Origin: Hyphomicrobium sp. D-2
GTDB taxonomy: Bacteria > Pseudomonadota > Alphaproteobacteria > Rhizobiales > Hyphomicrobiaceae
DNA length: 64,000 nt
Assembly: GCF_029872155.1 (NCBI RefSeq)
Contig: NZ_JARXLA010000008.1
Location: 622,501-686,500 of the forward strand
Direction: 5' to 3'
Under the pieces are notes generated by a model that saw only the letters and a program-made list of their open reading frames with translations, did no database searches and was not told the DNA's origin. Positions 27,380 through 57,535 of this stretch are shown piece by piece; position 1 is the stretch's first letter; each line of letters begins with the position of its first letter. The translations under genes and the position numbers were made by a program.

Positions 27380-27727
27380 ATGTATCAATTCTCCTATGCC
27401 GATGTGCTTGAGACCAGCCCGAAGGTTGCGCGCGAGCGTGAGCGGCAGGTTTTTGAGCGCAGCATCGAATTGCTGAAAGCCGCTGATGAAAAGGGACCGA
27501 ACTCCATCGAAGCCGTCGAGGCGCTGACGTTCAGTCGACGCCTGTGGGCTGCGCTTCTGGAGGATCTGGCAAGCCCTGACAATGCGCTGCCCGATGAACT
27601 GCGTGCGCAGATTATTTCGATCGGCATCTGGGCCGTGCGTGAAGCTGAGAACATCCGTTTGGGTAAGACGGCGGATTTTAAACCGCTGATCGACGTCACA
27701 ACGGCGTTATATGAAGGTCTGCAATGA
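27380..27727 (+). CDS. flaF: Flagellar biosynthesis regulator FlaF
   Basis: This 115-residue protein matches FlaF, with YADVLETSPKVARERERQ and RLWAALLEDLASPDNALPDELRAQIISIGIWAVREAE. In alphaproteobacteria FlaF is needed for flagellin synthesis or export and acts together with FlbT. Its last four bases overlap flbT (ATGA), so the two are made together. Their likely targets here are the five flagellin mRNAs with shared leaders, 22 kb downstream. Confidence 0.92.
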   Translation: MYQFSYADVLETSPKVARERERQVFERSIELLKAADEKGPNSIEAVEALTFSRRLWAALLEDLASPDNALPDELRAQIISIGIWAVREAENIRLGKTADFKPLIDVTTALYEGLQ

Positions 27728-28161
27728 AAAAGCTGCAGATTTCTCTGAAGCCCGGCGGCCGCATTTATGTCAATGGCGCGGTGCTCAAGGTTGATCGCAA
27801 AGTCTCAATCGAGTTTCTGAATGACGTGACGTTCCTGCTTGAGCATCACGTGCTGCAGCCTAGCGATACGCATACGCCGCTGCGCCAGCTCTATTTTATC
27901 ATTCAGACGGTGCTTATCGATCCAGCGAACAGCGAGGACGCAAGGTCGATGTTCCACTCCGCCCATGCGGCGCTGCTGGCATCGTTCAAGAACTCGACAA
28001 TCATCAACGGGCTGGTTGAAGTGGGAGATGCGTTCGAACGGGGTCGCCCCTTCGATGCGCTCAAGGTCCTGCGCCCGCTGTTTGTAATCGAAGATGAGAT
28101 CATCGCACAGGGTACGCGCCCTGAGCGCTCGGAAATCCAGCATGAATGCGAGGTCCGCTGA
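27724..28161 (+). CDS. flbT: Flagellin mRNA regulator FlbT
   Basis: This 145-residue protein begins MKKLQISLKPGGRIYVNGAV, with the LKPGERIxING-type opening of FlbT, and contains the VTFLLEHHVLQPSDTHTPLRQLYF segment. In Caulobacter and Brucella FlbT acts post-transcriptionally on the 5' leader of flagellin mRNA. That is established for relatives and inferred here. The gene overlaps flaF by four bases and flgD by one. Confidence 0.93.
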   Translation: MKKLQISLKPGGRIYVNGAVLKVDRKVSIEFLNDVTFLLEHHVLQPSDTHTPLRQLYFIIQTVLIDPANSEDARSMFHSAHAALLASFKNSTIINGLVEVGDAFERGRPFDALKVLRPLFVIEDEIIAQGTRPERSEIQHECEVR

Positions 28162-48833: not shown

Positions 48834-49624
48834 AGCGAGCCCTTTTGATTGTGCTGTTGCTCGGTCTTGGAACCGTGCAGGCAGCAGCGCAAGCACTGCC
48901 GAGCCTGGAAGAGCTTTTACCGCAGGGTGATGCTTCTGCGGCGGGCCGGATCATTCAGTTCGTGATGCTGATCACGGTGCTGTCGATCGCGCCTGGCATT
49001 CTGGTGATGGTGACTTGCTTCACCCGTTTTGTGGTGGCGCTGTCTTTTCTGCGCGCTGGTATCGGTCTTCAAACAACACCGGCTAACCTGATCCTGATCA
49101 GTCTGGCGCTGTTCATGACGCTGTACGTGATGGCGCCGACCTTCGACAAGGCCTGGAAAAACGGGGTAGCCCCGCTCATTGAAAACAAGATCACGGAAGA
49201 GGAAGCGTTTACGCAGATCACAGCGCCGTTTCGATCATTCATGCTGGCCAACGTGCGCGATAAAGATCTGAAGCTCTTCTACGATCTGGCGCACGAGCGG
49301 CTTTGGCCTCGTCAAAGTGGATCGCAAGGCGAGCAGACTGAAGCACCACCTCCTCCGCCTCCGCCGCAAACCGATGAAAACATCGAGCTGCGGATTCTGA
49401 TCCCGGCATTCATGATCTCCGAACTGCGCAGGGGTTTTGAGATCGGGTTTCTAATGGTTCTGCCGTTTCTCGTGATCGACATGATCGTCGCAACGCTGAC
49501 CATGTCGATGGGCATGATGATGCTGCCACCAACGATCATATCGTTGCCGTTCAAGATCCTGTTTTTTGTTCTGATCGATGGCTGGAATTTGCTCGTCGGC
49601 GGTTTGATTCGCTCCTATGTGTAG
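48830..49624 (+). CDS. fliP: Flagellar export gate protein FliP
   Basis: This 264-residue protein has a cleavable N-terminal signal and four later membrane segments. Family signatures are LSIAPGILVMVTCFTRFVVALSFLR and IDMIVATLTMSMGMMMLPP. It is the pore core of the export gate with FliQ and FliR. The acidic/proline stretch TEAPPPPPPPQTDENIELR is a variable loop. It is the last gene before the flagellins. Confidence 0.96.
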   Translation: MKRALLIVLLLGLGTVQAAAQALPSLEELLPQGDASAAGRIIQFVMLITVLSIAPGILVMVTCFTRFVVALSFLRAGIGLQTTPANLILISLALFMTLYVMAPTFDKAWKNGVAPLIENKITEEEAFTQITAPFRSFMLANVRDKDLKLFYDLAHERLWPRQSGSQGEQTEAPPPPPPPQTDENIELRILIPAFMISELRRGFEIGFLMVLPFLVIDMIVATLTMSMGMMMLPPTIISLPFKILFFVLIDGWNLLVGGLIRSYV

Positions 49625-49690
49625 CTTTTTTGAGCGAATGGTTGCGTTTCGTTAACCAGTTCTTCAATGGTAGATGGTTGAGTAGCGTCA

Positions 49691-49802
49691 CACGGCGGGT
49701 TGGGCGGTTTTCGTCCAAGGGCATGATGCCGAGCCGCCGTGCCGGAATGGTGATCCGGCATGTCCCATAAGCAACACTAACTCCTCGGGACAGGCTTCCA
49801 AA
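49691..49802 (+). promoter_or_regulatory. Structured flagellin leader 1
   Basis: Hairpin P1 has TTGGGCG (49700-49706) pairing with CGTCCAA (49712-49718). P2 is GGCATGATGCC. P3 is TGCCGGA/TCCGGCA. The box TGTCCC (49761-49766) is complementary to GGGACA (49787-49792) at the ribosome-binding site. GGGCATG (49719-49725) can pair instead with CATGTCCC (49759-49766). Confidence 0.8.
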
Positions 49803-50741
49803 ATGGCTAGTATCAATACGAACATCGCAGCAATGACCGCGCTGCGCTCACTGACTTCCACCAACGATGCTCTCACGCGCACGCAGGACCGTATCTCTAC
49901 TGGTCTGCGCGTCAGCACGGCTGCCGACAACGCGGCGTACTGGTCGATCGCTACGACCATGAAGTCCGACACATCGGCGCTTTCGACGGTGCAGGATGCC
50001 CTGGGTCTCGGTGCAGCCACTATCGATGTCGCCTATACGGCGCTTGATGAGGCGAAGAACCTCGTCATCAAGATCAAGGACAAGCTGGTTGCTGCTGCGC
50101 AGCCCGGTCTTGACCGCGAGAAGATCCAGACGGAAATCACTGAGCTGCAGTCGCAGCTGAAGGGCATCGCCGACGCGGCGAGCCTGCAAGGCCAGAACTG
50201 GCTGTCGGTGGACTCGTCTGCGGCTGGTTACACTGCAACGAAGCAGGTGGTTTCGTCGATTGCGCGCGCTGCAGGCACCATTTCGGTGCAGACCATTTCC
50301 ATCAACACCGCTGGAATGGTTCTGTACGACAACAGCGCTACGGCTGACGGCATTCTCGATTCTATGCGCGATGCAGCCACTGGCGCCGTCGATCCGGCAG
50401 GTACGTTCAATATCGCAACATTGAATATCTCTGCGCTGACAGACAGTGTCGCGCATATGGCCATCCTCGACGGCTACATTAAGGGTGCAGATCGCGCGAT
50501 CACAGACTTGGCGGCAGGTGCAACGACGCTTGGCGCAGCCAAGGCCCGCATCGACATTCAGCAGACCTTCGTGGCCAGCCTGAAGGATGCGCTTGAGGGC
50601 GGCATCAGCCAGCTCGTCGACGCTGACATGAACGAAGAGTCGACCCGCTTGCAGGCGCTGCAGGTGAAGCAGCAGCTTGGCATTCAGGCGCTGTCGATCG
50701 CCAACAGCTCCAGCCAGAGCATCCTGAGCCTGTTCAAGTAA
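49803..50741 (+). CDS. fliC: Flagellin, subfamily A, copy 1
   Basis: This 312-residue flagellin has the N-terminal D0/D1 MASINTNIAAMTALRSLTST and the C-terminal LQVKQQLGIQALSIANSSSQ. The mid-N segment TTMKSDTSALS and the IDIQQTF and EGGISQL segments group it with copy 2. The central region carries the short TGAVDPAGTF form, like copy 5. It has only a small variable domain. It is exported and polymerises into the filament. A structured leader controls it, and a hairpin without a T-tract follows. Confidence 0.97.
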   Translation: MASINTNIAAMTALRSLTSTNDALTRTQDRISTGLRVSTAADNAAYWSIATTMKSDTSALSTVQDALGLGAATIDVAYTALDEAKNLVIKIKDKLVAAAQPGLDREKIQTEITELQSQLKGIADAASLQGQNWLSVDSSAAGYTATKQVVSSIARAAGTISVQTISINTAGMVLYDNSATADGILDSMRDAATGAVDPAGTFNIATLNISALTDSVAHMAILDGYIKGADRAITDLAAGATTLGAAKARIDIQQTFVASLKDALEGGISQLVDADMNEESTRLQALQVKQQLGIQALSIANSSSQSILSLFK

Positions 50742-50759
50742 CAGGTGAGGCAAGTTTAG

Positions 50760-50791
50760 CCTTGGCGCTTAATTTATTGCGTGCGCCAAGG
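50760..50791 (+). terminator. Hairpin after flagellin 1
   Basis: CCTTGGCGC (50760-50768) and GCGCCAAGG (50783-50791) form a perfect 9-base stem with a 14-base loop. No T-tract follows directly, so it may be an mRNA 3'-end stabiliser or a weak terminator. Confidence 0.55.
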
Positions 50792-50860
50792 TGACTATCA
50801 GCGGCTTTTGTATTCCGTATCGGCGACGATCTTGTGATCGGTTGTCGGGCCTTTAATGCG

Positions 50861-50967
50861 ACGGCGGGTTGGGCGGTTTTCGTCCAAGGGCATGATGCCG
50901 ATACGCCGTGCCGGAATTGATCCGGCATGTCCCATGAGCAACAATTTTTCCAAGGGACAGGCCTCCA
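50861..50967 (+). promoter_or_regulatory. Structured flagellin leader 2
   Basis: P1 is identical to leader 1 (TTGGGCG/CGTCCAA). P2 is GGCATGATGCC. P3 is TGCCGGA/TCCGGCA with a shorter loop. TGTCCC (50928-50933) is complementary to GGGACA (50954-50959). GGGCATG lies at 50888-50894. Confidence 0.8.
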
Positions 50968-51933
50968 ATGGCTAGTATCAACACGAACATTGCAGCGATG
51001 ACCGCGCTGCGTTCTCTGACTTCTACCAACGACGCTCTCACGCGCACGCAGGATCGTATTTCGACCGGCCTGCGCGTTAACACTGCAGCCGATAACGCCG
51101 CTTACTGGTCGATCGCCACGACCATGAAGTCCGACACGTCGGCGCTTTCGACGGTGCAGGACGCACTCGGCCTCGGGGCTGCGACGGTTGACGTAGCGTA
51201 TACGGCGCTTGATGAGGCGAAGAACCTCGTCATCAAGATCAAGGACAAGCTGGTTGCCGCTGCGCAGCCGGGTCTTGATCGTGCGAAGATCCAGACTGAA
51301 ATCACCGAGCTGCAGGCGCAGTTGAAGGGCATGGCTGACGCTGCAACTCTGCAGGGCCAGAACTGGCTTTCAGTGGATTCGGCCGCTGCAGGCTATAACG
51401 CGTCGAAAAAGATCGTGTCGTCGATCGCGCGTGCTGCCGGCACCATCTCTGTGCAGACGATCACGATCGATACAACGTCGATGGTGTTGTTTGACTCGAA
51501 CGCAGCTGTTGCAGGCGTCGGCATTCTCGATGCGTACCGCAACGCAACGACCGGTATTCGCTATCCGACCCAGCCGGCCACGCCTGCCGCTACCGACTTC
51601 ACGATCGTTGGCATCAACATCTCGGCGTTGACTGACAGCACTGCCGATCTCGCGACGCTTGATGGTTACATCAAGGGTGCGGATCGCGCGATCACGGAAC
51701 TCGCAGCGGGTGCTACGGCACTGGGTGCCGCGAAGGCCCGCATCGACATTCAGCAGACGTTCGTGTCGAGCCTGAAAGATGCGCTTGAAGGCGGCATCAG
51801 CCAGCTCGTCGACGCGGATATGAATGAAGAGTCCACGCGCTTGCAGGCGCTGCAGGTGAAGCAGCAGCTTGGTATCCAGGCGCTGTCGATCGCCAACAGC
51901 TCCAGCCAGAGCATTCTGAGCCTGTTCCGCTAA
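50968..51933 (+). CDS. fliC: Flagellin, subfamily A, copy 2
   Basis: This 321-residue flagellin shares its terminal domains with copy 1 (TTMKSDTSALS, ALDEAKNLVIKIKDK, ARIDIQQTF). Its central segment is the long TQPATPAATDF form shared with copies 3 and 4. It ends ILSLFR. An 8-base-distant GGGACA precedes the ATG. A clear terminator follows. Confidence 0.97.
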   Translation: MASINTNIAAMTALRSLTSTNDALTRTQDRISTGLRVNTAADNAAYWSIATTMKSDTSALSTVQDALGLGAATVDVAYTALDEAKNLVIKIKDKLVAAAQPGLDRAKIQTEITELQAQLKGMADAATLQGQNWLSVDSAAAGYNASKKIVSSIARAAGTISVQTITIDTTSMVLFDSNAAVAGVGILDAYRNATTGIRYPTQPATPAATDFTIVGINISALTDSTADLATLDGYIKGADRAITELAAGATALGAAKARIDIQQTFVSSLKDALEGGISQLVDADMNEESTRLQALQVKQQLGIQALSIANSSSQSILSLFR

Positions 51934-51956
51934 GACACGCTCAACGCACCTTATTG

Positions 51957-51992
51957 AAAGGGCCGGATCCCGTAGAGGGGTCTGGCCTTTTC
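51957..51992 (+). terminator. Rho-independent terminator after flagellin 2
   Basis: The imperfect stem AAAGGGCCGGATCCC (51957-51971) pairs with GGGTCTGGCC and following T residues (to 51991). Confidence 0.75.
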
Positions 51993-52120
51993 GTATTTGG
52001 ACATCCGTTTATGGCTCGTTCAGTACGTTTTTATGAGCGTTAATGCCGCACGATGGAAACATCGGCCAAGTGCCGCCGCGTTAGTTAGAATGCAAGGTAT
52101 TCATCATTAAGCATTGGCTA

Positions 52121-52220
52121 TGACAGGTTGGGCCACGAACCCAAGGGCATGATGCCGAACTGTTGTGCCGGTTAGACCGGCATGTCCCGATCGTAATCAG
52201 TCATCCCAAGGGACACTCCA
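52121..52220 (+). promoter_or_regulatory. Structured flagellin leader 3
   Basis: P1 is TTGGG (52128-52132) with CCCAA (52140-52144). P2 is GGCATGATGCC. P3 is TGCCGG/CCGGCA (52166-52182). TGTCCC (52183-52188) is complementary to GGGACA (52210-52215), five bases before the ATG. GGGCATG lies at 52145-52151. Confidence 0.8.
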
Positions 52221-53186
52221 ATGGCGAGTATCAATACCAACGTTGCCGCGATGACGGCGCTCCGTTCTCTCACTTCCACGAACTCTGCGCTTGAGCAGAC
52301 GCAGAACCGCATCTCTACCGGTCTGCGCGTCAACACCGCTGCCGACAACGCCGCTTACTGGTCGATCGCCACCACGCTGCGCTCCGACAGCTCGTCGCTG
52401 TCGACCGTGCAGGATGCGCTCGGTCTCGGCGCCGCTTTCGTCGATGTCGCCTATACGGCGATGGACGAAGCCAAGAACATCATGACCAAGATCAAGGACA
52501 AGCTGGTCGCTGCGGCTCAGCCGGGTCTTGATCGCGCCAAGATCCAGACCGAAATCACCGAACTGCAGTCACAGCTGAAGGGCATCGGCGATGCCGCCAG
52601 CCTGCAGGGCCAGAACTGGCTTTCTGTTGACTCGGCTGCTGCCGGCTATAACGCGTCGAAGCAGGTTGTTTCGTCGATCGCGCGTGCTGGCGGTACCATC
52701 ACGGTGCAGTCGATTTCGATCAACACCAGCTCGATGATCATGTTCGACTCCAACGCGGCCGTCGCCGGAGTTGGCATCATCGACGCATATCGCGACGGCA
52801 CCACCGGCGTGCGCCATGCAACCCAGCCTGCAACGCCAGCTGCGACCGACTTCCGTCTGTCGGACATCAACATCGGGGCGCTGACCGACAGCACGGCTGA
52901 TCTCGCAACGCTTGATGGCTACATCAAGGGTGCTGACCGCGCGATCACGGAAATGACTGCCGGTGCGACGACGCTGGGTGCTGCCAAGGCACGCATCGAG
53001 ATTCAGCAGTCGTTTGTTTCCAGCTTGAAGGACTCGATCGAAAGCGGCATCAGCCAGCTCGTCGACGCTGACATGAATGCAGAGTCGACCCGCTTGCAGG
53101 CACTGCAGGTGAAGCAGCAGCTTGGCATCCAGGCGCTGTCGATCGCCAACAGCTCCAGCCAGAGCATCCTGAGCCTGTTCCGTTAA
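52221..53186 (+). CDS. fliC: Flagellin, subfamily B, copy 3
   Basis: This 321-residue flagellin has the subfamily B terminal features TTLRSDSSSLS, AMDEAKNIMTKIKDK, ARIEIQQSF and ESGISQLVDADMNAEST. The long central form TQPATPAATDF is present. A strong terminator follows. It is nearly the same length as copies 2 and 4. Confidence 0.97.
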   Translation: MASINTNVAAMTALRSLTSTNSALEQTQNRISTGLRVNTAADNAAYWSIATTLRSDSSSLSTVQDALGLGAAFVDVAYTAMDEAKNIMTKIKDKLVAAAQPGLDRAKIQTEITELQSQLKGIGDAASLQGQNWLSVDSAAAGYNASKQVVSSIARAGGTITVQSISINTSSMIMFDSNAAVAGVGIIDAYRDGTTGVRHATQPATPAATDFRLSDINIGALTDSTADLATLDGYIKGADRAITEMTAGATTLGAAKARIEIQQSFVSSLKDSIESGISQLVDADMNAESTRLQALQVKQQLGIQALSIANSSSQSILSLFR

Positions 53187-53210
53187 TCCGGACAGAGATG
53201 CCTGCCTATT

Positions 53211-53247
53211 GAAAGCCAAGCTCCTCCCAGGGCTTGGCTTTCTTTTT
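53211..53247 (+). terminator. Strong rho-independent terminator after flagellin 3
   Basis: GAAAGCCAAGC (53211-53221) pairs perfectly with GCTTGGCTTTC (53232-53242), followed by TTTTT. Confidence 0.95.
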
Positions 53248-53358
53248 AATTGAGTTTTCACCAGCGCTCATCGAGCGGGATCGTTTCGAGCAGATAGATA
53301 GAAGTTGAATGATTTCATTAGCCGGGTTGAAAACGGCCAACGTTAAACGTGCAAGCAT

Positions 53359-53455
53359 GACAGGTTGGGTCTAACGAACCCAAGGGCATGATGCCGAACT
53401 GTTATGCCGGTTGATCCGGTATGTCCCGCTAGTTTGCGTTTAAAGGGACAGCCCG
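53359..53455 (+). promoter_or_regulatory. Structured flagellin leader 4
   Basis: P1 is TTGGGT with ACCCAA. P2 is GGCATGATGCC. P3 is ATGCCGG/CCGGTAT with one G-U pair. TGTCCC (53422-53427) is complementary to GGGACA (53445-53450). GGGCATG lies at 53384-53390. Confidence 0.8.
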
Positions 53456-54421
53456 ATGGCAAGTATCAATAGCAACGTCGCCGCTATGACGGCGCTGCGT
53501 GCTCTCACCGCGACCAATTCTTCTCTTGTTCAGACGCAGAGCCGTATTTCCACCGGTATGCGCGTCAACACCGCTGCCGACAACGCCGCTTACTGGTCGA
53601 TCGCAACCACACTGCGTTCTGACAGCTCGTCGCTGTCGACGGTGCAGGATGCGCTTGGCCTTGGCGCAGCATTTGTCGATGTTGCCTACACGGCGATGGA
53701 CGAAGCCAAGAACATCATGACCAAGATCAAGGATAAGCTGGTCGCTGCGGCTCAGCCGGGCCTCGACCGCGCCAAGATCCAGACCGAAATCACCGAACTG
53801 CAGTCGCAGCTCAAGGGCATGTCTGACGCTGCAACGCTGCAGGGCCAGAACTGGCTGTCGGTTGACTCTGAGGCAGCCGGTTACAACGCCACGAAGAAGA
53901 TCGTGTCTTCGATTGCGCGATCTGGCGGCAGCATCTCGGTGCAGTCGATTTCTATCGACACGTCCTCGATGGTTCTGTTTGACGCCAGCACGGAAGACGA
54001 CGGCGTCGGCATTATTGATGCCTATCGCGATGGAACAACCGGTGAGCGTTATGCAACGCAGCCGGGTACGCCTGCCGCTACCGACTTCCGTCTGTCGACG
54101 ATGAATATCTCGACTTTGACCGACAGCGCCGCCCATCTTGCGACGCTGGATGGTTACATCAAGGCTGCCGATCTCGCGATCAGTGAGATGGCTGCTGGCG
54201 CTACCACGCTGGGTGCTGCCAAGGCGCGTATCGAGATTCAGCAGTCGTTCGTTTCGAGCCTGAAGGATGCGATCGAAAGTGGCATCAGTCAGCTCGTCGA
54301 CGCTGACATGAATGCTGAGTCTACACGCTTGCAGGCCCTGCAGGTGAAGCAGCAGCTTGGTATTCAGGCGCTGTCGATTGCCAACAGTTCAAGCCAGAGC
54401 ATCCTGAGCTTGTTCCGTTAA
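53456..54421 (+). CDS. fliC: Flagellin, subfamily B, copy 4
   Basis: This 321-residue flagellin has subfamily B termini (TTLRSDSSSLS, ARIEIQQSF) and the long central form TQPGTPAATDF. Copy-specific changes include NSNVAAM near the N-terminus and GYIKAADLAISEM. A terminator closely related to that of copy 3 follows, showing that the duplication included flanking sequence. Confidence 0.97.
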   Translation: MASINSNVAAMTALRALTATNSSLVQTQSRISTGMRVNTAADNAAYWSIATTLRSDSSSLSTVQDALGLGAAFVDVAYTAMDEAKNIMTKIKDKLVAAAQPGLDRAKIQTEITELQSQLKGMSDAATLQGQNWLSVDSEAAGYNATKKIVSSIARSGGSISVQSISIDTSSMVLFDASTEDDGVGIIDAYRDGTTGERYATQPGTPAATDFRLSTMNISTLTDSAAHLATLDGYIKAADLAISEMAAGATTLGAAKARIEIQQSFVSSLKDAIESGISQLVDADMNAESTRLQALQVKQQLGIQALSIANSSSQSILSLFR

Positions 54422-54457
54422 ACTCACGTCGCTTACACGTTTCAAACGCCCAACTTT

Positions 54458-54496
54458 GAAGGTCGAGCTCCTCCCAGGGCTTGGCCTTCTTTTTTT
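54458..54496 (+). terminator. Rho-independent terminator after flagellin 4
   Basis: GAAGGTCGAGC (54458-54468) pairs imperfectly with GCTTGGCCTTC (54479-54489) and is followed by seven T residues. The loop TCCTCCCAGG is shared with the copy-3 terminator. Confidence 0.93.
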
Positions 54497-54672
54497 GTAT
54501 TCGTGTGAATCGATTTGAACCACTTACGCACCTGGTATGCGGCGCGTTCGTACTAATCGTGTTGCGATATCATTAGGCACATTTGTAGCAGCGCGTTTGA
54601 CGCATCGATTGCATAAACGGCGGGGCGTTGCGTTAGGGAGGGCGCAAGAGTTCATCGGATATGTGTTGTGTG

Positions 54673-54772
54673 ATGACAGGTTGGGTATCGTGAACCCAAA
54701 GGCATGATGCCGAACTGTCATACCGGCTGGTCCGGTATGTCCCCTCCAGTATCTAGTTCGCAGGGACACACA
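54673..54772 (+). promoter_or_regulatory. Structured flagellin leader 5
   Basis: P1 is TTGGGT (54681-54686) with ACCCAA (54694-54699). P2 is GGCATGATGCC. P3 is CATACCGG/CCGGTATG, perfectly paired. TGTCCC (54738-54743) is complementary to GGGACA (54763-54768). The alternative partner is AGGCATG (54700-54706), weakened by one base. Confidence 0.8.
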
Positions 54773-55711
54773 ATGGCGAGTATCAATACCAACGTTGCCG
54801 CGATGACGGCGCTCCGCGCTCTCACCTCCACCAACTCCGCACTGACGCAGACGCAGAGCCGTATTTCTACCGGTATGCGTGTCAACACCGCAGCCGACAA
54901 CGCTGCTTACTGGTCGATCGCAACCACACTGCGTTCCGACAGCTCTTCGCTTTCGACGGTGCAGGATGCGCTCGGTCTTGGCGCAGCTTTCGTCGACGTT
55001 GCCTACACGGCAATGGACGAAGCCAAGAACATCGTATCGAAGATCAAGGACAAGCTGGTTGCCGCCGCTCAGCCCGGCCTTGATCGTGGCAAGATCCAGA
55101 CCGAAATCACCGAGCTTCAGTCGCAGCTCAAGGGCATGGCCGACGCCGCCACGCTGCAGGGCCAGAACTGGCTGTCCGTGGATTCGTCCGCAGCTGGCTA
55201 CAATGCGACCAAGAAGGTTGTGTCGTCGATTGCCCGTACGGGTGGTTCGATCTCGGTGCAGTCGATCTCGATCAACACGGGTTCGATGAAGCTGTTCGAT
55301 TCCTCCGCTGCTGCGAAGGGCATTCTGGATACGAACCGTAACGCTACGACCGGTGCGGTTGATGCTGCTGGTACGTTCACGATTGCGGCCATCAATATCT
55401 CGGCGCTGACCGACAGCACGGCTGACCTCGCAACGCTTGACGGCTACATCAAGGGCGCTGACCGCGCGATCACCGAGATGGCTGCTGGTGCTACCACGCT
55501 GGGTGCTGCCAAGGCACGCATCGAGATTCAGCAGTCGTTCGTGTCGAGCCTCAAGAACTCGATCGAGAGCGGCATCAGCCAGCTCGTTGACGCTGACATG
55601 AACGCCGAATCAACCCGTTTGCAGGCGCTGCAGGTGAAGCAGCAACTTGGCATTCAGGCGCTGTCGATCGCCAACAGCTCCAGCCAGAGCATCCTGAGCC
55701 TGTTCCGGTAA
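54773..55711 (+). CDS. fliC: Flagellin, subfamily B, copy 5
   Basis: The ATG at 54773 matches the other copies; the frame is open further upstream through the leader (from 54704), but that reading is rejected. The protein has 312 residues with subfamily B termini (TTLRSDSSSLS, ARIEIQQSF) but the short central TGAVDAAGTF form, like copy 1. It is followed by a hairpin lacking a T-tract. Confidence 0.97.
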   Translation: MASINTNVAAMTALRALTSTNSALTQTQSRISTGMRVNTAADNAAYWSIATTLRSDSSSLSTVQDALGLGAAFVDVAYTAMDEAKNIVSKIKDKLVAAAQPGLDRGKIQTEITELQSQLKGMADAATLQGQNWLSVDSSAAGYNATKKVVSSIARTGGSISVQSISINTGSMKLFDSSAAAKGILDTNRNATTGAVDAAGTFTIAAINISALTDSTADLATLDGYIKGADRAITEMAAGATTLGAAKARIEIQQSFVSSLKNSIESGISQLVDADMNAESTRLQALQVKQQLGIQALSIANSSSQSILSLFR

Positions 55712-55734
55712 GGCCACAACTGGCATGAATTGAA

Positions 55735-55765
55735 TGAGCCAGCTTCCGGAAACGGGGCTGGCTCA
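55735..55765 (+). terminator. Hairpin after flagellin 5
   Basis: TGAGCCAGC (55735-55743) and GCTGGCTCA (55757-55765) form a perfect 9-base stem with no T-tract. Some readthrough into fliF is possible. Confidence 0.55.
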
Positions 55766-55849
55766 CTCATTGGAACGTCTCGCGCAAGGTTCCCCCCGAA
55801 AGGTTACGGCGGCAAATCATAGGCCGGATTCGTAACCGCCGGGGAAGCA

Positions 55850-57535
55850 ATGAACTGGAGCGAACAGCTCAAGCAACTGCGCGACAACCTTTTGGCTCTC
55901 GGCCCACGGCGCCTTGCCGTGCTCGGCCTTGTAGGGCTGGCTGTTTTCAGCGCCGTTGGTCTTAGCAGCTACTATCTCAGCCGTCCTGATTTCGAGACGC
56001 TGTATGCCGGTCTTGAACCGCAGGATGCTGCGCGTATCGGTGCAGCGCTGCAGGAAAGCGGCATTTCATTCGATGTGAATCCCGAGGGCACGGCCGTGCT
56101 TGTGCATCCGGGGCAGGCCTCGCGTGCGCGCATGCTGCTGGCGGAGAAAGGTCTGCCGAGCAGCGCCAGCGCGGGCTATGAACTTTTCGACAAGATGGGC
56201 GCGATCGGCCTGACATCGTTCATGCAGGAGATCACGCGTGTCCGTGCGCTGGAGGGCGAGATAAGCCGCACCATTCAGGGCATGAAGGGTGTGCGCGCCG
56301 CGCGTGTGCACATCGTGATGGCGGATACAGGTTCGTTCCGGCGCAGCACGCAGAAGCCTTCTGCATCGGTGGTAATCCGGGCGGATTCGACCTCAGAGTT
56401 CAACTCTTCCCAGGCCATCCGTCATCTTGTGGCGGCTGCGGTGCCGGGCCTGACTGTTGACCAGGTTCGCGTGTTGAGCACGGATGGCACGGTGCTGGCC
56501 GGTGGCGAAGGCGCTTTCAATGCTGCGCCGACGAAGATGCTGGAGCTTGAGCGCACCGTTGCGAATGAGCTGAAGCAGAATGTCAGCCAGACGCTGGCGC
56601 CCTATATCGGCATCGACAACTTCCAGATCAGCGTGGCCGCGCGTCTCAACATCGACAAGCGCCAGATCAACGAAACAACCTACGATCCGAATTCGCGCTT
56701 TGAACGTTCGCGCCGCACGATCAAGGAAAAGAGCAACGCGCGGGATGCGGGCAATTCGCAGCCTGTCGGCGTGGAGCAGAACATTCCGGCGGAACAGCCG
56801 CAGACAGGTGGGGACAGCAGCTCTGCCCGCGCCAGCGAGCGCAAGGAAGAGCTGAAGAACTTCGAGGCAAATTCGAAGGTCATGTCGACCGTCAGTGACG
56901 GCTATCGCATTGACGCATTGACAGTTGCGGTGGTGCTGAACCGCAAGCGCCTGGAGATGTTGCTCGGCGAGGGGGCGACGCCTGAAGCGATCGCTTCCAA
57001 GCTGAAGGAAGTTGAGAACATCGTCGCTTCGGCAACCGGAGCTGACACCGAGCGGGGTGATCGCATCACTGTTGCGGCGGTTGAGTTCATGCCGCACGGG
57101 GAGATGCTTGAGCCGCTGCCGGGTCCGGGCGTGATGGACTTCCTGATGGGCGAGATGGGCACCTTCATCAAGGCGCTGGCGGTGCTCGGTGCGGCGATGA
57201 TCCTGGTGTGGTTCGGACTGCGTCCGGCAACGCGCATGCTGCTGGAGTATCAGCCGATCGCAGCGCCTGCGGCAGTTGCATCAGTGACGAGCGACCTGCC
57301 GTTCGAGCCGCAGATTGCGCCGGCATTTTCATCGGATTTTGGATCTGGGAACATGGCGTTCGCGGGCGGAGGCATGCCGTTTGGCATGGATGATGGCGAG
57401 CCGGATCTGATCGGAGACCTCACCAGCAAGATCAATCGGAATCCGCAGAAGCGCCTGGAACAGATCATCGACTATGACGAGGACCAGGCCGTTACTATCA
57501 TGAAGCAGTGGCTGCGCGGGAGCGTAACGACGTGA
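55850..57535 (+). CDS. fliF: Flagellar MS-ring protein FliF
   Basis: This 561-residue protein has an N-terminal membrane helix (RLAVLGLVGLAVFSAVGLS) and two ring-building domains (YAGLEPQDAARIGAALQESG; LAEKGLPSSASAGYELFDKMG). A second membrane helix (FIKALAVLGAAMILVWFGL) precedes a C-terminal FliG-binding tail (KRLEQIIDYDEDQAVTIMKQ). It is the base plate on which the motor assembles. The stop overlaps the fliH GTG start. Confidence 0.96.
   Translation: MNWSEQLKQLRDNLLALGPRRLAVLGLVGLAVFSAVGLSSYYLSRPDFETLYAGLEPQDAARIGAALQESGISFDVNPEGTAVLVHPGQASRARMLLAEKGLPSSASAGYELFDKMGAIGLTSFMQEITRVRALEGEISRTIQGMKGVRAARVHIVMADTGSFRRSTQKPSASVVIRADSTSEFNSSQAIRHLVAAAVPGLTVDQVRVLSTDGTVLAGGEGAFNAAPTKMLELERTVANELKQNVSQTLAPYIGIDNFQISVAARLNIDKRQINETTYDPNSRFERSRRTIKEKSNARDAGNSQPVGVEQNIPAEQPQTGGDSSSARASERKEELKNFEANSKVMSTVSDGYRIDALTVAVVLNRKRLEMLLGEGATPEAIASKLKEVENIVASATGADTERGDRITVAAVEFMPHGEMLEPLPGPGVMDFLMGEMGTFIKALAVLGAAMILVWFGLRPATRMLLEYQPIAAPAAVASVTSDLPFEPQIAPAFSSDFGSGNMAFAGGGMPFGMDDGEPDLIGDLTSKINRNPQKRLEQIIDYDEDQAVTIMKQWLRGSVTT

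Follow-up and report, generated by a model that had tools for sequence, protein, structure and literature searches.

A covarying RNA leader of flagellin and chemoreceptor genes in the Hyphomicrobiales and its possible link to FlbT

The stretch of DNA analyzed here, hereafter the window, comprises 64,000 nucleotides (positions 622,501 to 686,500 of contig NZ_JARXLA010000008.1) of the 3.79-Mb genome of Hyphomicrobium sp. D-2. It contains five flagellin genes, all on the + strand between fliP and fliF, and every one of them is preceded by a separate leader roughly 100 bases long. On comparative evidence, the leader represents a genuine RNA family that occurs across many families of the order Hyphomicrobiales and covers flagellin and chemotaxis genes, and comparison of homologues shows that its RNA structure is under selection on the + strand. 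No family in Rfam 15 matched the leaders, and no prior description of the leader family was found in the open-access literature searched. We consider it reasonably probable that the leader acts as a cis-regulatory RNA for lateral-type late motility genes, with FlbT as its reader and a helix near the start codon (P4) as its off-switch.

The consensus fold of the five leaders, obtained with RNAalifold, consists of P0 (7 pairs), P1 (6 pairs), P2 formed by GGCATGATGCC, P3 (5 pairs) and P4 (TGTCCC/GGGACA). A preliminary description of this DNA had listed P1, GGCATGATGCC, P3 and a complement of the ribosome-binding site in a common order before each flagellin. The alignment confirmed this order in all five leaders, and the P1 arms (TTGGGCG/CGTCCAA in leaders 1 and 2, TTGGG/CCCAA in 3, TTGGGT/ACCCAA in 4 and 5) and the variable P3 pair (G-C in leaders 1-3, G-U in 4, A-U in 5) were also as described; what the list had overlooked is the outer stem P0. 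This stem, formed by alignment columns 23-29 with 65-71, surrounds P1 and GGCATGATGCC and carries three of the five pairs altered on both sides; leader 1 has the arms ACGGCGG/CCGCCGT, and leaders 3-5 have ATGACAG/CTGTYRT. TGTCCC is able to pair with GGGACA 5′ of the start codon in each of the five.

When the five leaders were considered by themselves, 98.6% of the pair cells were paired, versus 30-41% when the partners were slid by 1-3 columns, and none of 500 shuffles matched their covariation score. Other measures were less telling: the count of pairs changed on both sides was attained in 19 of 500 shuffles, that of pair types in 441 of 500, single leaders folded only modestly better than shuffles (z from -0.5 to -2.7), and the minimum-energy folds of leaders 3, 4 and 5 deviated partly from the consensus. 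P2, P4 and four of the five P3 pairs do not vary among the five and are uninformative on their own. Because shuffles attain two of the measures, the five window leaders are thin evidence, and the case for structure rests on comparison and not on folding energy.

As the preliminary description had proposed, a covariance model (R1) was built from the five leaders and searched against genomes; a second model (R2) was built on 47 matches, 43 of them distinct. R1 found matches in 18 of 60 genomes, including its own, at E ≤ 0.01. With R2, at least 108 of 297 genomes of the order had a match at E ≤ 0.01 and at least 76 (counted by eye) at E ≤ 1e-8, both being lower bounds since 11 candidates were scored per genome. 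Here after, a genome without a match at E ≤ 1e-8 is called leader-free, and some of these have matches at 0.0001 to 0.01. In a class-wide R2 search of 289 genomes, 17 including the own genome had matches at E ≤ 0.001, and the best score outside the own genome was 30.1 bits, so that matches near 30 bits are suspect. At 30 flagellin-domain loci of 14 leader-free genomes, no R2 match above 8 bits was found.

Covariation was determined in 143 leaders of less than 95% identity by a tree-aware test, which was modelled on R-scape and is not R-scape itself; its null is heavy-tailed (maximum 131.8), and the E-values are therefore rough. Among the 28 pairs tested, E < 0.05 was reached by all seven pairs of P0, all six of P1, one of four in P2, two of five in P3 and none of six in P4. 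After correction over all 8256 column pairs, three P0 pairs and all six P1 pairs stayed below 0.05, and none in P2, P3 or P4. Because the model alignment leans towards the structure, a structure-blind MAFFT alignment of 181 core sequences was made, in which helix pairs accounted for 9 of the 12 strongest among 4095 column pairs, with P0 and P1 again ranking at the top. In addition, 256 distinct leaders, a few doubtful ones included, contained 384 G-U pairs versus 118 A-C mismatches when the fourth P2 position was omitted. This excess on the + strand indicates that the element acts as RNA, since a DNA inverted repeat would lack such a bias. The proposal of the preliminary description that RNA structure is under selection is thus strongly supported by the covariation in homologues, the G-U excess and the structure-blind ranking.

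Inspection of the same 256 leaders also modified the view of GGCATGATGCC, which had been described as a palindrome. It is one in the window; in the relatives, the A at the fourth pair stands opposite T in 144 leaders, C in 56, A in 36 and G in 18, and because this pair is not conserved, P2 is better regarded as a stem of three base pairs capped by an AUGAN loop. The best-conserved letters of the flagellin leaders are GGCATGA-GC, CCGG/CCGG and ATGTC. Two other pairings of P2 were rejected by inspection: pairing of its 5′ arm (GGCAU) with the AUGUC after P3, because L089, L108 and L034, in which P2 starts with AGC, retain AUGUC uncompensated, and pairing with the P0/P3 junction (CATGCC), which is broken where P3 starts with ACC.

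The genes downstream were determined by blastp for 170 matches (alignments A4 and A5), drawn from a set that comprised nearly all of the listed order matches with E ≤ 1e-5 and a few weaker ones. These matches lie upstream of flagellins in 142 cases and of chemoreceptors in 13, and two of the remaining 15 are flagellins by eye, one at a contig end (L150) and one in another frame (L117). The element had been described for flagellins, which are indeed its main targets, and it is not specific to them. Five of the 15 precede genes for a CheA-like kinase (L155, 34.5 bits), GGDEF or GGDEF/EAL proteins (L123, L126, L025) and a PilZ protein (L146); the eight others are antisense, chance or without explanation (L098, L017, L024, L172, L173, L174, L176, L177). 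The GGDEF, GGDEF/EAL and PilZ matches are weak (26-32 bits) and suggest that the regulon extends to cyclic di-GMP (c-di-GMP) signalling. The genome of Hyphomicrobium sp. D-2 itself has a sixth leader, outside the window and upstream of a chemoreceptor gene (C8:694901-695016, - strand, equal to L051:2902-3017; 45.4 bits), in which the model placed no P4. Another genome (G268) has five scattered matches, which precede one flagellin, three chemoreceptor genes and the CheA-like kinase already mentioned; CheW-like open reading frames follow two of these chemoreceptor genes by eye, and two of the three matches score 27-30 bits.

In named genomes, a pattern scan gave at least 117 stretches, of which 80 (L189-L268) were searched with R2; these stretches are pattern-selected and are not a census. 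The 97 matches precede 49 flagellins and 35 chemoreceptors by blastp, and several of the 13 found elsewhere precede, as judged by eye, truncated proteins of these two kinds. In Microvirga (L226, L243, L244), matches of 64-71 bits stand upstream of an ABC transporter-like open reading frame (Pfam on L226 only), which is not an obvious motility gene. A gene for a protoglobin chemoreceptor, which we take to be IcpA, presumably the first product of the che operon, lies downstream of the leader in Sinorhizobium meliloti 4H41 (L252) and in an Agrobacterium genome (L231). In Bradyrhizobium diazoefficiens (L209), the leader precedes three flagellins of 303-309 amino acids, which by their size would be the lateral ones.

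A TTAR motif near -40 and a CAAG motif near -28 occur at a fixed distance 5′ of P0 in 71 of 247 leaders, versus 4.9 in shuffles and 6 further upstream; exact copies of the motifs are present in the window only at leaders 3 and 5. This fixed distance suggests that the mRNA starts just 5′ of P0.

P4 was tested by duplex energy because the MAFFT and model alignments misplace it in leaders with GTCTTTC. For 186 distinct leaders whose start codon lies where it was expected, the duplex between the segment following P3 and the segment preceding the start codon has a mean energy of -9.0 kcal/mol, compared with -7.8 for permuted partners (0 of 2000) and -4.3 for shuffled partners. Replacements that retain pairing were observed, GTCTTTC/GAAAGAC often in family f17 and GTTCC/GGAAC in L125 and L140. 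The predicted accessibility of the Shine-Dalgarno (SD) region was compared with that under shuffled upstream sequence in 149 flagellin leaders and was the lower of the two in 108. A number of results count against P4 as a general off-switch. The drop in accessibility is small (from 0.45 with shuffled upstream sequence to 0.38), and it is seen in two of the four window leaders tested, the other two showing a rise. Pairing is weaker than -6 in 40 of the 186, Mesorhizobium-type flagellin leaders have ATGTCAAAAAAA without a partner, and the model assigns no P4 to L042 and L119, which are rhizobial chemoreceptor leaders. For the 75 leaders that lack GTCCC, pairing of the arms with their own SD regions averages -5.87, which is no better than the -5.98 found with the SD regions of GTCCC leaders, and, as described above, the column covariation test gave no significant P4 pair. 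Since P4 is partnerless or weak in some lineages, it looks like a lineage-specific expression platform outside the core. Mesorhizobium-type leaders such as L138, L141 and L189 keep the core and have lost P4, and a short GGTACGAGTACC hairpin by the SD may replace it there.

FlbT was considered as the factor that reads the leader. Two features of an FlbT-regulated leader, an FlbT gene in the same genome and a position directly 5′ of flagellin genes, were found. Matches to FlbT were present in 210 of the 297 genomes of the order, namely in 75 of the 76 leader genomes versus 135 of the 221 others (split by eye). A tree of 100 FlbTs has a clade with support 1.0 that includes all 44 FlbTs located within 60 kb of a leader, and only one of the 48 from leader-free genomes or second copies; in this single exception (G283), FlbT and leader are on separate contigs. 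Another eight FlbTs have no leader within 60 kb. Six of them fall in the clade, including one on the same contig as the leader and distant from it (G190), and the two outside (G304, G180) are second copies whose partners are not in the tree sample. When 19 genomes with two FlbT genes, one near the leader, were compared, the leader-near copy was a 372-base match in 18, the exception being G304 (366). The predicted fold of the FlbT encoded in the window has an N-terminal beta part and a C-terminal helical bundle, for which FliS is one of many bundles with similar scores.

Published work bears on this distribution. A passage in a survey assigns only the lateral-type flagellar system to Hyphomicrobium, Rhizobium, Sinorhizobium and Mesorhizobium (PMC6406911), and this assignment fits the distribution of the leader. 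Judged by the FlbT clade, the leader tracks one flagellar system of the Hyphomicrobiales, probably the lateral type. According to a statement in a review, the lateral flagellins LafA1 and LafA2 of Bradyrhizobium are translationally induced by FlbT (PMC8429497), and excerpts from other papers describe Brucella FlbT as enabling FliC production (PMC8781033), propose binding of FlbT to flagellin 5′ untranslated regions (UTRs) in Caulobacter and Brucella (PMC4347634) and let class III control in Caulobacter span flagellins and Che proteins (PMC9812332), a scope that fits the gene set of the leader. The shared occurrence with one FlbT clade and the statement on Bradyrhizobium lend indirect support to the link between FlbT and the leader, which remains an inference. 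Three observations weaken this link. FlbT is described as a repressor in Caulobacter in the passages concerned (PMC4347634, PMC3930126, PMC7591256), one leader genome (G145, 86% complete) has no FlbT match, and FlbT and the leader mostly share a flagellar cluster, so that common descent could by itself yield the clade match. Because linked inheritance suffices for the pattern, the match of the clade is no proof of FlbT binding.

The mechanism that we favor is as follows. P0 surrounding P1 and P2 (GGC-AUGAN-GCC), followed by P3, would be the conserved core that the cell recognizes. In most flagellin leaders, P4 would join the bases that follow P3 to those preceding the start codon, and by hiding the ribosome site it would keep translation low by default. 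The likeliest reader of the core would be the FlbT of the same system, which is presumably produced at an earlier stage of assembly; once bound, it would open P4 or stabilize the mRNA, and flagellins and chemotaxis proteins would consequently be translated only when they are usable. The leader probably determines the timing of late motility protein production. In this scheme FlbT binding, the role of FlbT as activator and that of P4 as expression platform are the parts that we infer. A wider version, an assembly checkpoint throughout the order in which the core is read by a lateral-type FlbT activator and the targets are flagellins, chemoreceptors, a CheA-like kinase and some c-di-GMP enzymes, is put forward tentatively, at somewhat under even chances.

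Regulation by FlbT was compared with other explanations of the leader. The structure might be passive, acting without a specific ligand as a stabilizing 5′ end or as an RNA thermometer of abundant late motility mRNAs; P0 may begin near the mRNA 5′ end, as the spacing of TTAR and CAAG suggests, and P4 covers the ribosome region. We regard this as unlikely, since a passive stem requires less than the near-invariant AUGAN loop, the conserved CCGG hairpin and the sequence conservation across families. It is also rather improbable that the leader is read by another factor such as c-di-GMP and represents an undescribed class of riboswitch, whose aptamer would be P0-P3 and whose expression platform would be P4. 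A conserved core followed by a variable helix that hides the SD is riboswitch-like, and the weak matches near GGDEF/EAL and PilZ genes resemble the gene set of c-di-GMP riboswitches. However, these matches are close to the background of the class search, no c-di-GMP riboswitch of Rfam reached threshold in the window or E ≤ 10 over the leaders, unpaired positions contribute few conserved bases, chiefly those of the AUGA loop, and a general second messenger would not be expected to co-occur with one FlbT clade. It is very improbable that the leader acts at the DNA level, as a palindromic operator or as a late promoter, with repeats that only resemble RNA structure: within the window GGCATGATGCC is palindromic, and there is a promoter-like motif upstream, but the dyad symmetry is broken at the fourth P2 pair in relatives, the G-U excess is not expected from DNA, and the P4 arms match across the region adjoining the start codon. 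Control of flagellin translation by CsrA at the SD, as in Campylobacter, would act through GGA at the ribosome site, and GGGAC does contain GGA. It has a negligible probability, because a search of 80 genomes, some with the leader and some without, found no CsrA, versus matches in 3 of 14 control genomes.

A flagellin 5′ UTR that responds to FlbT was reportedly described in Caulobacter and Brucella, by Anderson and Gober in 2000 and by Ferooz in 2011. The leader resembles it as an alphaproteobacterial flagellin mRNA leader accompanied by an FlbT gene. It differs in that the leader covaries and also fronts chemoreceptor genes, whereas the accounts of that UTR considered here define no RNA family, and in the direction of control, which is repression in Caulobacter versus the lateral-flagellin induction that the review reports for Bradyrhizobium.

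The preliminary description knew of no named RNA family matching the leader, and the Rfam searches bear this out. Matches of RAGATH-4 and IRES_Bip in the window were far under their gathering scores. The obvious named candidate, flg-Rhizobiales (RF01736), did not match the leaders at E ≤ 10; its threshold is 55 bits, and its six matches in this genome, none of them in the window, reached at best 14.5 bits. This family is presented as a candidate structured RNA of flagellar genes in the same order (PMC2864571), and like the leader it lies 5′ of such genes. Unlike the leader, it has repeated TTGGGAGAAC or TGGGGAG, and the proteins downstream of its 19 matches (in 18 of 150 genomes) are FlgF-like rod proteins by eye, not flagellins or chemoreceptors, so that both score and context fail. 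The serC, speF, suhB, ybhL and metA (SAM-II) elements are likewise leader RNAs identified by comparison in Agrobacterium and relatives (Corbino 2005, PMC1273637); no element name in the outline of that paper refers to a flagellar gene, and none of the elements matched the leaders in Rfam.

The features of the window are listed in Table 1. All five flagellins have Flagellin_N and Flagellin_C domains (Pfam), and flgK, a flagellin-domain (flgL-like) gene, flaF, flbT and flgD lie together at 24.8-28.6 kb. The R1 scores of the five leaders are self-matches, as R1 was trained on them. Five terminator-like sites were found at 49550-55900 compared with 6.1 expected, which means no regional excess, and none of the five is inside a leader, so that no attenuator-type intrinsic terminator was found there. 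The hairpins after flagellins 3 and 4 are closely alike and have the common core GAGCTCC/AGCTCCTCCCAGGGCTTGG.

Table 1. Positions of the leaders, flagellin genes and associated features in the window
Feature	Position	Strand	Basis
Leader 1 (P0 start to base preceding ATG)	49692..49802	+	R1 match 49674-49810, 109 bits; R2 98.2 bits
Leader 1, P0 5′ arm (outer stem)	49692..49698	+	RNAalifold columns 23-29, hand-mapped onto leader 1
Leader 1, P1 hairpin	49700..49718	+	Alignment and RNAalifold
Leader 1, P2, GGCATGATGCC (GGC-AUGAN-GCC)	49720..49730	+	RNAalifold, homologue conservation
Leader 1, P0 3′ arm	49734..49740	+	RNAalifold
Leader 1, P3 hairpin (CCGG...CCGG)	49741..49759	+	RNAalifold, letter conservation
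Leader 1, P4 5′ arm (TGTCCC)	49761..49766	+	RNAalifold, duplex energy
Leader 1, P4 3′ arm (GGGACA), presumed ribosome-binding region	49787..49792	+	RNAalifold, duplex energy
Flagellin 1	49803..50741	+	Pfam Flagellin_N and _C
Leader 2	50861..50967	+	R1 118.9 bits
Flagellin 2	50968..51933	+	Pfam Flagellin_N and _C
Leader 3	52120..52220	+	R1 116.2 bits
Flagellin 3	52221..53186	+	Pfam Flagellin_N and _C
Leader 4	53357..53455	+	R1 115.5 bits
Flagellin 4	53456..54421	+	Pfam Flagellin_N and _C
Leader 5	54673..54772	+	R1 116.1 bits
Flagellin 5	54773..55711	+	Pfam Flagellin_N and _C
Terminator-like hairpin, 3′ of flagellin 3	53211..53242	+	Terminator-like site scan
Terminator-like hairpin, 3′ of flagellin 4	54458..54489	+	Terminator-like site scan
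flaF	27380..27727	+	Pfam FlaF, 3.4e-33
flbT (leader-linked clade), proposed trans-acting factor	27724..28161	+	Pfam FlbT, 7e-38; tree

A covarying RNA that is not in Rfam thus fronts late motility genes of well-studied rhizobia, namely Sinorhizobium meliloti, Bradyrhizobium and Rhizobium. As a defined RNA with parts that can be tested point by point, it makes recognition by FlbT, and the question of activation or repression as it stands in the passages cited, directly testable. If FlbT does read the core, the leader would give FlbT its first defined RNA target and might account for activation by FlbT in rhizobia as against repression in Caulobacter, and the expression of flagellins and of chemotaxis proteins would be linked post-transcriptionally.

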